NCBI RefSeq assembly: GCF_014303395.1
Contig: NZ_CP060298.1
Location: 2,809,001 to 2,873,000, forward strand
DNA: 64,000 nucleotides
DNA from: Nakamurella sp. PAMC28650
GTDB lineage: Bacteria > Actinomycetota > Actinomycetes > Mycobacteriales > Nakamurellaceae
Direction of reading: 5' to 3'
In this document: positions 11,459 to 36,962 of the stretch, piece after piece
How positions within the stretch are numbered: position 1 is the first letter of the stretch
How the letters are laid out: every line of letters starts with the position of its first letter
Program-made: the position numbers and the translations under genes
The notes under the pieces: model-generated
What the model saw: only the letters and a program-made list of their open reading frames with translations
What the model was told of the DNA's origin: nothing
Databases searched by the model: none

Positions 11459-11597
11459 CCCGCGCTCATCAACTTCGCCGGCGCTCATCAAATCGTCCAC
11501 TCCTGTCACACGCATCCCAGAACGTCCATCTTCGTGAGCGCGGACGATGTTGATCAGCGCGGGCACGGGAGTTGATCAGCGCGGGCGCGGGAGTTGA
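11459..11597. repeat. Intergenic facing-array repeat, locus A (22-nt units)
   Basis: The left half carries two units of the form CGCTCATCAA (first one CCCGCGCTCATCAAC). After about 42 bases the right half carries three units beginning GTTGATCAGCGCGGG at 11549, 11571 and 11593 (the third shorter and diverged), a period of 22. Left and right units are inverted copies of each other (one mismatch over 15 in the best pair), so the locus can fold as a long hairpin in more than one register. It lies between the co-directional genes pgeF and sepF, and its reverse complement shares sequence with the repeat at 35.6 kb. Confidence 0.75.
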
Positions 11598-32901: not shown

Positions 32902-35575
32902 CGATCTCGCTCCGGGCTATCCGCAGCACTGGGAGGCCGACGTCCTGCTGGCCGACGGCGGAGCCGTGCACCTCCGTCCCTCCGCCGCGACCGACGGGCC
33001 GGCCATCCTTGCCATGCACGACCGGATGAGCGACCGCACCCGTTATCTGCGCTACTTCCAGGCCGTCAGCCACATCTCGCCGTCCCAACTCGCCGTCTTC
33101 ACCGATGTCGACTACGTCAGCGCGGTCGGTCTGGTGGCCGAGCTCGGCGGCCAGTTGATCGCGGCCGGTTCCTACCACCGGGACAAGAACAATCCGGATG
33201 CTGCCGAGGTCGCCTTCGTCGTCGAGGATGCCCAGCAACGGCGCGGTCTCGGCTCGATTCTGCTGGAACACCTGGCCGCAGCCGCCCAGGAACGCGGTGT
33301 CAAACGGTTCACCGCCGAGGTGCTGGGGGAGAACCAGACGATGCTGCGCGTGTTCATCGACGCCGGCTATGCGGTGACCCGCGAGTTCTCCTCCGGGGTG
33401 GTCGATCTCGGTTTCGACATCAAGCCGACCGAGTCGTCGCTGGCCGTCATCACGTCGCGTGAGCACCGGGCCGAATCCCGCTCGATCGCCCGTCTGCTCG
33501 CCCCCCGGTCGGTGGCCGTCATCGGTGCGTCCAACGAGACCCGCAAACTCGGGCATGCCGTCCTGGTCAACCTGCTGCGCGCCGGGTTCACCGGGCCTGT
33601 GTACCCGGTGAATCCGGAAACCCTATCGGTACAGGGTGTTCGGGCCTACAAGTCGGTGCTGGACATTCCGGATCCCGTCGACATCGCGGTGGTGACGGTG
33701 CCGGCCGCCTCGGTCGCGGAGGTGCTGGAATCCTGCCGGGCCAAGGGGGTGCACGGCCTGGTCGTCGTCACCGGCGGGTTCGCCGACGCCGACCCGCTCG
33801 GCGACGCCGGTGATGGCGCGGACGCTCAGCGGCGGATGGTGTCGATGGCCAGGGCCAACGGCATGCGCGTGCTGGGACCGAACTGCCTCGGGGTGGTGAA
33901 CACCGACCCGGCCGTCCGGCTGAACGCGACTCTGGCACCGGTGGTGCCGCCCCCGGGTCGGGTCGGGTTCTTCTGCCAGTCTGGCGCGCTCGGCATCGCG
34001 ATCTTGGCCGATGCGGCCTCTCGTGGTCTCGGGCTGTCCTCGTTCGTCTCGGCGGGCAACCGCGCCGACGTCTCGGGCAACGACCTCCTGCAGTTCTGGC
34101 ATTCGGACGAGCGGACCGAGGTCGTCCTGCTCTACCTGGAATCGTTCGGCAACCCCCGCAAGTTCGCCCGGCTGGCCCGGACCCTCGCGCGGGCGAAACC
34201 GGTCATCGCGGTGAAGTCCGGTCGTCATGCGTTGGTCAGTCCCGGACTCGCGGCCAGCACCGCCGCCGTGTCCGACACCGCGGTGGCGACCCTGTTCGCG
34301 CAGTCCGGCGTGATCCGCACCGACACCCTCGGTGAGGCGTTCGACGCGGCGCAACTGTTGGCGCACCAACCGATCCCGAGAGGCGAGCGGGTGGCCATCC
34401 TGGGCAATTCCACCGCCCTGGGGGTGCTCGCCCTGGACGCCTGTGTGGAGGCCGGTCTGACGGTGGTCGACGAGGTGCCGGTGGATTTCGGCGTGAGCGT
34501 CAGCCCGGAGGAGCTGGGCGGGGCGGTCCGGATCGCTGTCGGCCGGGCCGACGTCGACGCTGTCGTGGTGGTCTACGTGCCGCCGGTGGCGATTCCGGGT
34601 CAGGCTCATGCCGAAGCGTTGCGGGCGGCAGCATCCGGATCCCGGGTCCCGGTGGTGAGCACGTTCCTGGCGGTCGACGGTCTGGCCGACTCGCTGACGG
34701 TGAGGGGTGAGGACGGCGGTGCCGCGAGGGGTTCGGTGCCGTCGTTCCGGACGCCGGAACGAGCGGTGGCCGCGCTGGCCCACGCCGTGCGGTACGGCCG
34801 ATGGTTGGGTCGGCCGACCGGGAAGGTTCCGGCGCTGGAAGGTGTGGAGTCCGCCCGGGCCCGGGAGTCGATGGCCTTGATGCGGCTGGCCGATCCCCGT
34901 GATCGGGACCTCTCCGACGAAGAACTCGTCGATCTCCTGGACTGCTACGGGATCTCGATCGCCCGGTTCGAGAGTGCCGACAACCGGGTTGATGTGCTGG
35001 CGGCGGCCGAGCGCGTCGGCTGCCCTGTCGTGCTGAAGGCGTTCGACCTGTCCTGGCGTCACCGCTACGACCAGCTCGGAGTGCGATTGGCACTGGCCGA
35101 CGCCGACGCCGTCGCGGTGGCCTACGACGAACTGGCCGCCGACGGGATGGGCCACGTGTACGTGCAGGTGATGGCTCCGCGGGATCGTGCGACGGTCCCG
35201 ACCGTTCTGGCGATCACCTCGGACCCGTCGTTCGGCGCCCTGGTGTCGTTCGGCATCGGTGGTGTGGCCACCGAACTGCTCGACGATCTCGCCTATCAGG
35301 CGGTCCCGCTGACCGACGTGGATGCCGCCGACCTGATCGACGGGCCGAAGGCCGCTCCGTTGCTGACCGGGTACCGCGGTGCGGCCGTCGTCGACCGCAG
35401 CGCGATCCTGGACCTGGCGCTGCGGCTCTCGGCGCTGTCGGACGATCTGCCGGAGGTCAGCCAGCTCTCACTGCAGCCTGTGTTGGTCGGGCCCGCCGGT
35501 ACCTGCATCACCTCGGCGGCAGGCCGGATCGGCCCGCCGGCCAGCAGGCCCGACGTCCGCCGCCGCCTCCGCTGA
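32894..35575 (+). CDS. PatA-like protein lysine acetyltransferase: GNAT fused to degenerate acyl-CoA synthetase (NDP-forming)
   Basis: An 893-aa fusion. Residues about 15-175 are a GNAT domain (VAFVVEDAQQRRGLGSILLEHLAAAA with the acetyl-CoA loop QQRRGLG). The rest follows NDP-forming acetyl-CoA synthetase order: CoA-binding domain (RSVAVIGASNETRKLGHAVL, about 205), succinyl-CoA ligase-like domains (CQSGALGIAI, about 360) and an ATP-grasp domain (about 670-880). The phosphohistidine motif (S-H-T-G in true synthetases) is replaced by AASTAAVSD, with the His missing, and the C-terminal LDINP motif reads LSLQP. This fits a Pat-type acetyltransferase, in which the synthetase half senses acetyl-CoA, rather than an active synthetase. 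The GTG start lies inside acuC. Confidence 0.85.
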   Translation: MTDDLAPGYPQHWEADVLLADGGAVHLRPSAATDGPAILAMHDRMSDRTRYLRYFQAVSHISPSQLAVFTDVDYVSAVGLVAELGGQLIAAGSYHRDKNNPDAAEVAFVVEDAQQRRGLGSILLEHLAAAAQERGVKRFTAEVLGENQTMLRVFIDAGYAVTREFSSGVVDLGFDIKPTESSLAVITSREHRAESRSIARLLAPRSVAVIGASNETRKLGHAVLVNLLRAGFTGPVYPVNPETLSVQGVRAYKSVLDIPDPVDIAVVTVPAASVAEVLESCRAKGVHGLVVVTGGFADADPLGDAGDGADAQRRMVSMARANGMRVLGPNCLGVVNTDPAVRLNATLAPVVPPPGRVGFFCQSGALGIAILADAASRGLGLSSFVSAGNRADVSGNDLLQFWHSDERTEVVLLYLESFGNPRKFARLARTLARAKPVIAVKSGRHALVSPGLAASTAAVSDTAVATLFAQSGVIRTDTLGEAFDAAQLLAHQPIPRGERVAILGNSTALGVLALDACVEAGLTVVDEVPVDFGVSVSPEELGGAVRIAVGRADVDAVVVVYVPPVAIPGQAHAEALRAAASGSRVPVVSTFLAVDGLADSLTVRGEDGGAARGSVPSFRTPERAVAALAHAVRYGRWLGRPTGKVPALEGVESARARESMALMRLADPRDRDLSDEELVDLLDCYGISIARFESADNRVDVLAAAERVGCPVVLKAFDLSWRHRYDQLGVRLALADADAVAVAYDELAADGMGHVYVQVMAPRDRATVPTVLAITSDPSFGALVSFGIGGVATELLDDLAYQAVPLTDVDAADLIDGPKAAPLLTGYRGAAVVDRSAILDLALRLSALSDDLPEVSQLSLQPVLVGPAGTCITSAAGRIGPPASRPDVRRRLR

Positions 35576-35590: not shown

Positions 35591-35720
35591 CGCATGGATC
35601 AATATCGTCGGCATGGATCAACATCGTCGGCATGGATCAACTTGGCCCATTTGGGACTGGAGCGACAGAAGTCGTCACTTTCGCCCATGCCTGCGAAGTT
35701 GATCCACGCCGAACCATGCC
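35591..35720. repeat. Intergenic facing-array repeat, locus B (19-nt units)
   Basis: Three direct copies of a GCATGGATCAA(C/T)ATCGTCG unit start near 35592, 35611 and 35630 (period 19; the third diverges after GATCAAC). After about 55 bases comes one inverted copy, GAAGTTGATCCACGCC, followed by GAACCATGCC. The block GATCAACATCGTC and the trailing GCGAAGTTGAT are shared with the reverse complement of the repeat at 11.5 kb, and the segment between them is also similar. It fills the gap between the convergent patA-like and sigB genes, so it could act as a bidirectional terminator. Confidence 0.75.
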
Positions 35721-35741: not shown

Positions 35742-36962
35742 TCAGCTGGCGTATGCCCGGAGCGCCTCGGAACGTTCGCCGACGCGGAGCTTGGCCATCG
35801 AGTCACGCTCGATCTGCCGCACCCGCTCCCGCGAGATCCCGAAGACACGGCCGATCTCGTCCAACGTGTGCGGACGACCGTCGTCGAGTCCGTAGCGGAG
35901 GCGGACCACGGAACGCTCGCGCTCGTCGAGCGTGTGCAGCACCTTGTTGATGTCCTCGTGCATGAAGCCTGCGACCACCTGGGCCTCAGCCGAGGTCGAC
36001 TCGGAGTCCTCGATGAAGTCACCGAGGGGGGCCTCTTCGTCGCTGCCCACGGGCATGTCCAGCGATACCGGATCGCGGGCGTGGTCGAGAAGATCGGCGA
36101 TCTTCTCCTCTGGAATCCCCGACTCCTCGGCGAGCTCGGCCATCGACGCGTCACGGCCCAGCTGCTGGTGCAGTTCGCGCTTGAGCCGGGACAGCTTGTT
36201 GACCTGTTCGACCAGGTGCACAGGCAGCCGGATGGTGCGACCCTGGTCGGCCATGCCACGCGAGATCGCCTGACGGATCCACCAGGTGGCGTACGTCGAG
36301 AACTTGAAACCCTTGGTGTAGTCGAACTTCTCGACCGCGCGGATCAGCCCGAGGTTGCCTTCCTGGATCAGGTCCAGCAGAGGCATCCCGCGTCCGGTGT
36401 AGCGCTTGGCCAGCGAGACCACCAGGCGCAGGTTGGCCACCAGCAGGTGGTTACGAGCCGTAGCCCCGCCGCGGATGACGGCGCGCAGGTCGGCCTTGCG
36501 CTGAGCGGACAGCCGGGAGCCGGTGTCGAGCTTGTGGGCGGCGAAGACGCCGGCCTCGGTGCGCTTGGCCAGATCGACCTCCTGCTCGGCGGTCAACAGG
36601 GCTGTACGCCCGATGCCGTTCAGGTAGACCCTGACCAGATCGGCCGAAGGTCCCTGCGCGTCAAGGTCTTCGGCCTCGCGCTTGGCGGTGGCCGAGGTGG
36701 TCGCGCGCGACGACGGAGCTCTGGTGCCCGCCTTCACGGCGACGGCCGGCGTCACTTCGTCCGGCGTGTCGTCCGATTCCGACTCCGTCGAATCGACGAC
36801 GGAGGCATCGGTCTCGGCGGCTTCGACGAAGCTGTCGTCGATATCGGTCGTGCCGACGTCGGTCGTGTCGATGTCCGGCGTTTGGTTGGATGTCGAGGCA
36901 AGGGCCGTCTCGGGTTCCGGTGCGTCGAAGACGTCCGCGTGTACCCTGGGGGAGTCGGTCAT
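35742..36962 (-). CDS. sigB: RNA polymerase sigma factor SigB (group 2, sigma-70 family)
   Basis: The 406-aa product has complete regions 1.2 to 4: [29 protein letters not shown] (1.2), [62 protein letters not shown] in pieces (2.1-2.4), [23 protein letters not shown] (3.2) and [19 protein letters not shown] (4.2). The [11 protein letters not shown] opening and RAYAS end match mycobacterial SigB rather than SigA/HrdB, pointing to a stationary-phase and stress sigma factor. An acidic Ser/Thr-rich N-terminal extension of about 95 residues is added. The ATG has GGGAG eight to ten bases upstream. A candidate ECF promoter lies 66 bases farther up. Confidence 0.9.

Follow-up and report, generated by a model that had tools for sequence, protein, structure and literature searches.

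The window analysed here, a 64,000-nucleotide stretch of the Nakamurella sp. PAMC28650 genome, contains two loci, A and B, in which short repeats face each other across a spacer and the same sequence blocks recur. The question raised by these loci is what kind of sequence recurs in this way, and how it came to do so.

Anatomy of the two loci

Pfam matches place locus A between a laccase-domain (PgeF-type) gene (PF02578) and sepF (PF04472), and locus B between two convergent genes, one of a CoA-ligase/GNAT type (end at 35575) and one of a sigma-70 type (end at 35742). The loci share one plan – at least one 19-nt unit, a 21-nt inner unit, a 23-nt core, and two facing units. Their parts are listed below by position in the window, with the evidence for each in parentheses; G000 is the host genome and R1 a covariance model described in the next section.

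11462–11582, core on the minus strand: locus A, whole copy, GCGCT subfamily (R1 match G000:C1:2820458-2820542:-)
11561–11582, minus strand: extra outer unit of locus A, 22 nt, GCGCTGATCAACTCCCGTGCCC (direct repeat D1)
11542–11560, minus strand: outer left unit O of locus A, GCGCTGATCAACATCGTCC (sequence and pairing geometry)
11521–11541, minus strand: inner left unit I of locus A, GCGCTCACGAAGATGGACGTT (sequence and pairing geometry)
11498–11520, minus strand: conserved core of locus A, CTGGGATGCGTGTGACAGGAGTG (core search with up to 6 mismatches; 2820520, 4 mismatches)
11481–11497, minus strand: inner right unit I' of locus A, complementary to I (sequence and pairing geometry)
11462–11478, minus strand: outer right unit O' of locus A, complementary to O (sequence and pairing geometry)
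35592–35709, plus strand: locus B, whole copy, GCATGG subfamily (R1 match G000:C1:2844629-2844713:+)
35592–35610, plus strand: extra outer unit of locus B (direct repeat D1, period 19)
35611–35629, plus strand: outer left unit O of locus B (direct-repeat analysis)
35630–35650, plus strand: inner left unit I of locus B (sequence and direct repeats)
35651–35673, plus strand: core of locus B, TTGGGACTGGAGCGACAGAAGTC (core search, G000:C1:2844651-2844673:+, 2 mismatches)
35674–35690, plus strand: inner right unit I' of locus B (sequence and pairing geometry)
35693–35709, plus strand: outer right unit O' of locus B (direct sequence reading)

The original prediction, made from the sequence of the window, described two units facing three at locus A across about 42 bases. 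The facing arrays are real, as are the two units of CGCTCATCAA, which start at 11463 and 11482, but GTTGATCAGCG has only two full units, exact at 11549–11559 and 11571–11581 (period 22), and the third, at 11593, is a fragment consisting of GTTGA and then CGG. An extra arm between the arrays, TTCGTGAGCGC at 11531–11541, had been left out; the gap between the arrays is about 40 bases when measured to this arm and 57 when measured to GTTGATC. The blocks named for the reverse complement of locus A, GATCAACATCGTC, TGGGATGCGTGTGACAGGAGT, and GCGAAGTTGAT, were found there, and in the same order in locus B. Rfam had no match within the 64-kb window at gathering thresholds.

Copies in the host genome

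The host genome (G000) is a single contig of 5,629,850 bases. A search with the conserved 23-nt core pattern, TTGGGAC..GAGTGAC..GAGTC, gave 91 matches with up to 3 mismatches (51 forward, 40 reverse), compared to 1 for the reversed control. Covariance model R1, built from 31 copies, gave at least 146 matches in 130 distinct places. The curated set holds at least 122 copies, in 122 stretches totalling 422,075 bases, and was obtained from 126 fuzzy core matches by removing four with six mismatches that were coding-like or inside another copy. All but one of the 122 are also model places, the exception being 81614. Nine of the 130 model places are outside the curated set – the core rule failed to pick up two (1179559 and 3258974), and seven were unfetched (492897, 1199224, 1494933, 1627419, 1639852, 2303219, and 4087813). 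All counts from model searches are lower bounds, because the best 10 to 150 candidates per genome were scored. With 116 of the curated copies between two called genes, the loci belong to a dispersed non-coding family, as had been proposed. The 13-mer GATCAACATCGTC, suggested as a genome probe, proved unspecific: most of 30 inspected matches, including four exact ones, had no element.

One sorting rule divides the host copies into GCATGG/GCGTGG (77 copies) and GCGCT (45 copies) subfamilies. Of 164 spacings between successive units, 134 are exactly 19, and one side of a copy can hold as many as seven units. The sequence thus supports the predicted growth in unit number, and slippage is a plausible step by which it may have happened. 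Whole elements are also found in tandem, at G000:C1:5096054-5096278 (three elements, at 5096054, 5096166, and 5096278), 3553954-3554057, and 4457348-4457512, with steps of 112, 103, and 164 bases, respectively; in-place multiplication thus affects complete copies and not units alone.

Two further repeats deserve mention. A 299-base repeat with 99.7% identity, 15 kb apart (G000:C1:5219428-5219726 and 5234024-5234322), is cut off by the end of a fetched locus and belongs to a recent duplication of at least that length. The genome statistics table in the N. multipartita report gives nine CRISPR repeats (PMC3035273), a count that could include arrays of the 19-nt units of this element.

Distribution across Nakamurella and beyond

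Six of the 17 genomes of the genus have the element in high copy number, one (G010) has 2 matches, and ten have none. The five high-copy species other than the host have 51 to 99 matches each, in line with the expectation that related genomes would hold further copies. Model R2 gave at least 88 matches in G001, 64 in G002, 99 in G008, 93 in G013, and 51 in G016, some of these being both strands of one copy. These carrier genomes serve as the positive control for the null result in the other ten. In a protein tree of SepF, YggT, and DivIVA (491 columns), the carriers are in three groups (support 0.977 to 1.0), all of them mixed with non-carriers, and so the carriers are not a clade.

Outside the genus, there was one weak single match (G021) among 44 genomes from other genera of the order, and one (G300) among 393 further genomes of the class, for which the best 10 candidates each were scored with strict filters, so that the lack of matches there is a weak negative. 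In G010, locus L097 is a diverged hairpin with GCATGGATCAAC units whose core is altered; it may be a relic or represent a separate subfamily. No report of the element was found in the Nakamurella literature within reach of the search, which most subscription papers lie outside.

Hairpin structure and covariation

In its full form, the element is one long imperfect hairpin in which position i pairs with position 100-i without gaps. At least 10 of the 17 inner-arm pairs are present in 122 of 122 host copies, and a full outer arm (at least 12 of 17 outer pairs) in 45 of the 122 and in 13 of 47 copies from the sister species G001. Many copies that lack the full outer arm have one left unit and two right units, and the single left unit could pair with either of them. 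Both strands of loci A and B fold as DNA into structures 3.4 to 4.8 standard deviations more stable than shuffled sequences, and a set of seven DNA folds had z scores of -3.4 to -11.8 relative to shuffles.

The arms differ between species – GCATGG, GCGCT, GCGCGG, GCGCTT, and GCGAGG were found – and pairing is retained. Alignment A3 contains 36 copies from five species (G000, G001, G008, G013, and G016), selected for pairing. Two-sided changes were found in 17 of its 31 pairs, with 123 two-sided-change cells compared to 53.6 (sd 6.6) in shuffles, and such paired substitutions are what the original prediction had named as support for an element family. The covariation score of A3 was 0.307, compared to 0.147 when shuffled and at most 0.078 when slid; pair 28:72 is unpaired in 25 of the 36 copies.

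Because the A3 copies were picked for pairing, less selected checks weigh more. The inner arm covaries in 70 copies from six species that were chosen on the outer arm alone: pair 23:77 is CG in 34 and TA in 32, and pair 25:75 is GC in 43, CG in 13, and TA in 8. Within the host, pair 6:94 covaries in GCGC copies (p = 0.004; 31 of 36 copies, leaving out four with GG and one with GT), and there was no covariation at 13:87 in GCGC copies or at 3:97 in GCRTGG copies. In the 47 G001 copies, the third letter of the left unit covaries with the outer right unit (22:97, p = 0.01), and there is no clear covariation with the position it faces under the i to 100-i rule (22:78). This agrees with the alternative pairing. 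The GATCAAC of the outer unit is nearly invariant, and the core varies little.

Copied blocks and empty sites

The copies at 2665942 and 3221771 have a common block of 87 nt, from -25 to +62 relative to the core start, with 2 differences (97.7% identity), and their flanks are unrelated beyond this block.

Nine orthologous gaps have a core in one of G000 and G001 and no core in the other, with the core in G000 in eight cases and in G001 in one. The nine regions were preselected by synteny for likely absence, so this number is not a rate. The dnaN-recF gap, which with 4969112 and 2747759 is among the three clearest cases, is 232 bp in G000, where it is occupied, and 4 in G001. At 4969112, two genes with a 4-base overlap in G001 (gap -4) are separated by 126 in G000, and the gap at 5230887 is 260 in G000 and 52 in G001. 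Both flanks align at 2747759, where the gap is 412 in G000 and 225 in G001 and the insert is an array of GCGCTGGTCAA-type units. The cases at 2281458 and 4588074 are weaker, with a G001 gap of more than 1 kb that holds other sequence. The arms are of the GCGCT type at six of the eight sites where G000 has the core and G001 lacks it.

No target-site duplication was visible in the one recent copy pair or in the empty-site comparisons, in which the flanks are much diverged. There is no strand bias relative to the replication fork (56 of 122 copies), and a lagging-strand route like that of IS200/IS605 is therefore without support.

Persistence and flipping in the sister species

The 47 G001 copies were taken from the best-scoring matches in that genome. 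Thirty-three of them match a G000 copy in lying on the corresponding side of an orthologous gene. The orientation agrees in 26 of these and is reversed in 7; locus B is one of the seven flipped copies. The 40-nt flanks of the 26 same-way pairs have an identity of 0.62, compared to 0.60 for random pairs. At six of the 33 shared positions, the arms are of the GCGCT type in G000 and of the GGCRTGG type in G001. Locus A is one of these six, and its neighbouring gene also differs there. At the corresponding gap before sepF in G001 (L207), the laccase-domain gene is absent, and the order is ftsZ, a terminator-like hairpin, and then the element; the other 15 SepF loci of the genus have no R1 match.

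Twenty-seven orthologous pairs are 79.2% identical, compared to 77.9% for non-orthologous pairs (permutation p = 0.005) and to 79.9 and 80.7% within species. This fits constraint and homogenisation equally well and does not tell them apart. Shared positions with distant species were also considered and not accepted as conservation: a few sites are shared among 58 (L299 and L355, with both flanks, and L333 with the model match at 3258974), a number informally judged to be near chance.

Placement relative to genes

According to gene calls made with our own gene caller, 42 of the 122 host copies are flanked by convergent genes, 67 by tandem genes (27 oriented like the gene, 40 against it), and 7 by divergent genes; 4 are inside a called ORF and 2 at the end of a stretch. 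Element-free gene pairs in the window and in long stretches comprise 22 convergent, 120 tandem, and 20 divergent. Relative to these, the host copies are enriched between convergent genes (p = 1.3e-5), and their depletion between divergent genes falls short of significance (p = 0.10). A baseline limited to element-free gaps no shorter than 85 bp, taken from the window and from the neighbourhood of the copies, has 5 convergent, 53 tandem, and 32 divergent.

The 58 copies placed in G002, G008, G013, and G016 are 27 convergent, 30 tandem, and 1 divergent (p = 0.018 for divergent, relative to the host baseline), after duplicates were taken out and with loci L327 and L330 giving no copy by the midpoint rule. 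Gaps with a copy also include the one between the S14 and S8 ribosomal protein genes and that between dnaN and recF. There is no clear clustering at the origin or terminus (KS p = 0.056).

Search for a mobilising enzyme

The RAYT family (PF01797) was rejected as a partner: G000 has no match, while 5 of 14 control genomes do, and only one genome (G016) in the 17-genome genus set has a match, with a stop inside it. A search for the Y2 transposase (PF04986) was uninformative, as it had no match anywhere, controls included. By eye and BLAST, no recurrent transposase, nuclease, or integrase was noticed between neighbouring host copies or beside copies in four other species, and no recurrent transposase that might mark the parent insertion sequence of a MITE was noticed beside the copies with compared flanks.

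Five G000 copies, among the most alike, adjoin degenerate DUF222/13E12-type sequences. Two of these sequences match PF02720 with internal stops, three are linked to them by nucleotide similarity, and they presumably carry an HNH motif. Each has an element copy at one end; their approximate positions are:

G000:C1, 1513482–1513966: degenerate DUF222/13E12 sequence
G000:C1, 4009974–4010845: degenerate DUF222/13E12 sequence
G000:C1, 4587987–4588859: degenerate DUF222/13E12 sequence
G000:C1, 4840574–4841477: degenerate DUF222/13E12 sequence
G000:C1, 5058777–5060113: degenerate DUF222/13E12 sequence

Comparison with known repeats

Dispersed palindromes are best described from Proteobacteria, many of them with RAYT enzymes. 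The Nakamurella element has two facing inverted units with a spacer that form a hairpin, as a REPIN does. In the REPIN/RAYT report (PMC3116915), those repeats are likewise high-copy extragenic inverted doublets that form one hairpin, with compensatory changes, higher-order tandem clusters, and a non-autonomous nature, but it is their ends that are conserved and the spacer less so, whereas here the loop core is conserved. The element also differs from REPINs in its 19-nt units added in register, and in that there is no RAYT-type gene found in the host, no visible small palindromic unit, and no GTAG tag; the unit consensus, GCATGGATCAACTTCG / GCGCTGATCAACTTCG, read by eye, lacks a GTAG and forms by itself no stem apart from GATC. 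It works like a REPIN, but these last three differences keep it from being classed as one.

The CGTC-tagged REPs are also dispersed palindromes, mostly head-to-head dimers, for which the authors found no dedicated transposase, but they have stems of 8–9 bp, loops of 4–5 nt, and a CGTC tag; the five phyla from which they are reported do not include Actinobacteria (PMC3733652). Since these REPs show that dispersed palindromes without a known transposase are already known, the Nakamurella family is a new variant of such repeats.

Terminal inverted repeats, short length, lack of genes, and high copy number are traits that the element has in common with MITEs. Reports on bacterial MITEs describe short, non-autonomous elements with inverted repeats, one of them, in another bacterium, containing a minisatellite (PMC10969869, PMC4596501). 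Neither a parent insertion sequence with these ends nor a target-site duplication, both features of MITEs, was seen among the flanks compared, which are much diverged. The MIRU and REP13E12 repeats of mycobacteria are likewise dispersed and come from the same taxonomic order. MIRUs, however, are minisatellites made of direct repeats, whereas REP13E12, which carries DUF222, is coding and about 1.4 kb long.

Nature of the element

Loci A and B are most probably copies of a non-coding, non-autonomous Nakamurella element that acts as a miniature mobile hairpin, similar to a REPIN or MITE. The observations that bear on this are the dispersal of the copies, the edges of one copied pair, the structure and its covariation, the occupied and empty sites, and the positions shared with the sister species. 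Judging from the sequences, the element was most likely present in the ancestor of G000 and G001 and kept spreading in G000; the continued spread is suggested by the GCGCT arms at six of the eight G000 sites that are empty in G001. The retention of 33 of 47 G001 positions is more persistence than active jumping needs, and counts against a mobile element.

The mobile unit would be about 85–100 bp, made up of one or two 19-nt units, the 23-nt core, and two facing units. As a single strand or cruciform, it would fold into one long, imperfect hairpin whose loop contains the core, and it may be copied in trans by a putative enzyme that recognises the hairpin or the core. Most copies would survive behind genes and in convergent gene pairs, as these are probably the places where an insertion is least harmful. 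The arrays could then grow by slippage of 19-nt units, and the complementarity of the arms and the flipping of the element may come about via template switching or recombination between the arms.

A different account of the arms is possible, if on balance doubtful: the element may be a self-editing hairpin. Template switching between the arms (quasipalindrome correction) and 19-nt slippage would copy units onto each other, so that the arms turn over together and the core is inverted in situ without an RNA being under selection, and spread would be due to an enzyme class not yet linked to such repeats. The reported outcomes of template switching between inverted repeats include arm homogenisation and spacer inversion (PMC8604942), and template switching is reported to be able to create and maintain RNA hairpins (PMC8794818). 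The arm changes and flips in the element are of the kinds expected from this process, and a link between them is what we infer.

The same placement and persistence could reflect a function in transcription, with the element kept as a bidirectional terminator or 3'-UTR stabiliser that ends or protects transcripts from both sides. The enrichment between convergent genes and close behind stop codons, the stable hairpin on both strands, and the 33 of 47 positions shared by the sister species all agree with this, but it is unlikely given the copies in the S14-S8 and dnaN-recF gaps, where a strong terminator would be expected to do harm, barring a separate promoter for the downstream gene within the widened gap. 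Consensus sequences of 69, 45, and 47 copies have no flanking T-run, and 10 of the 17 species of the genus gave no match; the conserved core is the loop, which a terminator does not need, and the G001 ftsZ (identified by Pfam) has its own terminator-like hairpin ahead of the element. An array of binding sites for a nucleoid, segregation, or regulatory DNA-binding protein, whose drifting specificity drags all of the arms along, seems less probable again. It would account for the nearly invariant GATCAAC with preceding letters that change together in the arms, for the 19-nt period, and for the persistence of positions, but not for the signs that copies have entered new sites, something not seen with operator sites; the lack of clear concentration at the origin or terminus and the ten species without a match also stand against it.

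The DUF222/13E12-type neighbours of five G000 copies would be explained if the element were the 3' part of a REP13E12-like HNH-endonuclease repeat mobilised by the HNH protein. This is very improbable, the most so of the readings considered, as the five copies look like one amplified segment. DUF222/HNH was rejected as a general partner, since PF02720 has matches in 17 of 17 genomes of the genus, including those without the element, and an R1 match within 1.5 kb is absent from all 30 of the PF02720 loci that were fetched, G000 contributing two of these.

High-copy hairpins in an actinobacterium in which no RAYT-type gene was found pose the question of which enzyme moves such repeats. The positions shared by sister species, some of them flipped, together with arms that change in concert, provide a ready test between selection and template switching. 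If the self-editing account is true, the family would be a natural record, in dozens to more than 100 copies per genome, of compensatory change by mutation alone.
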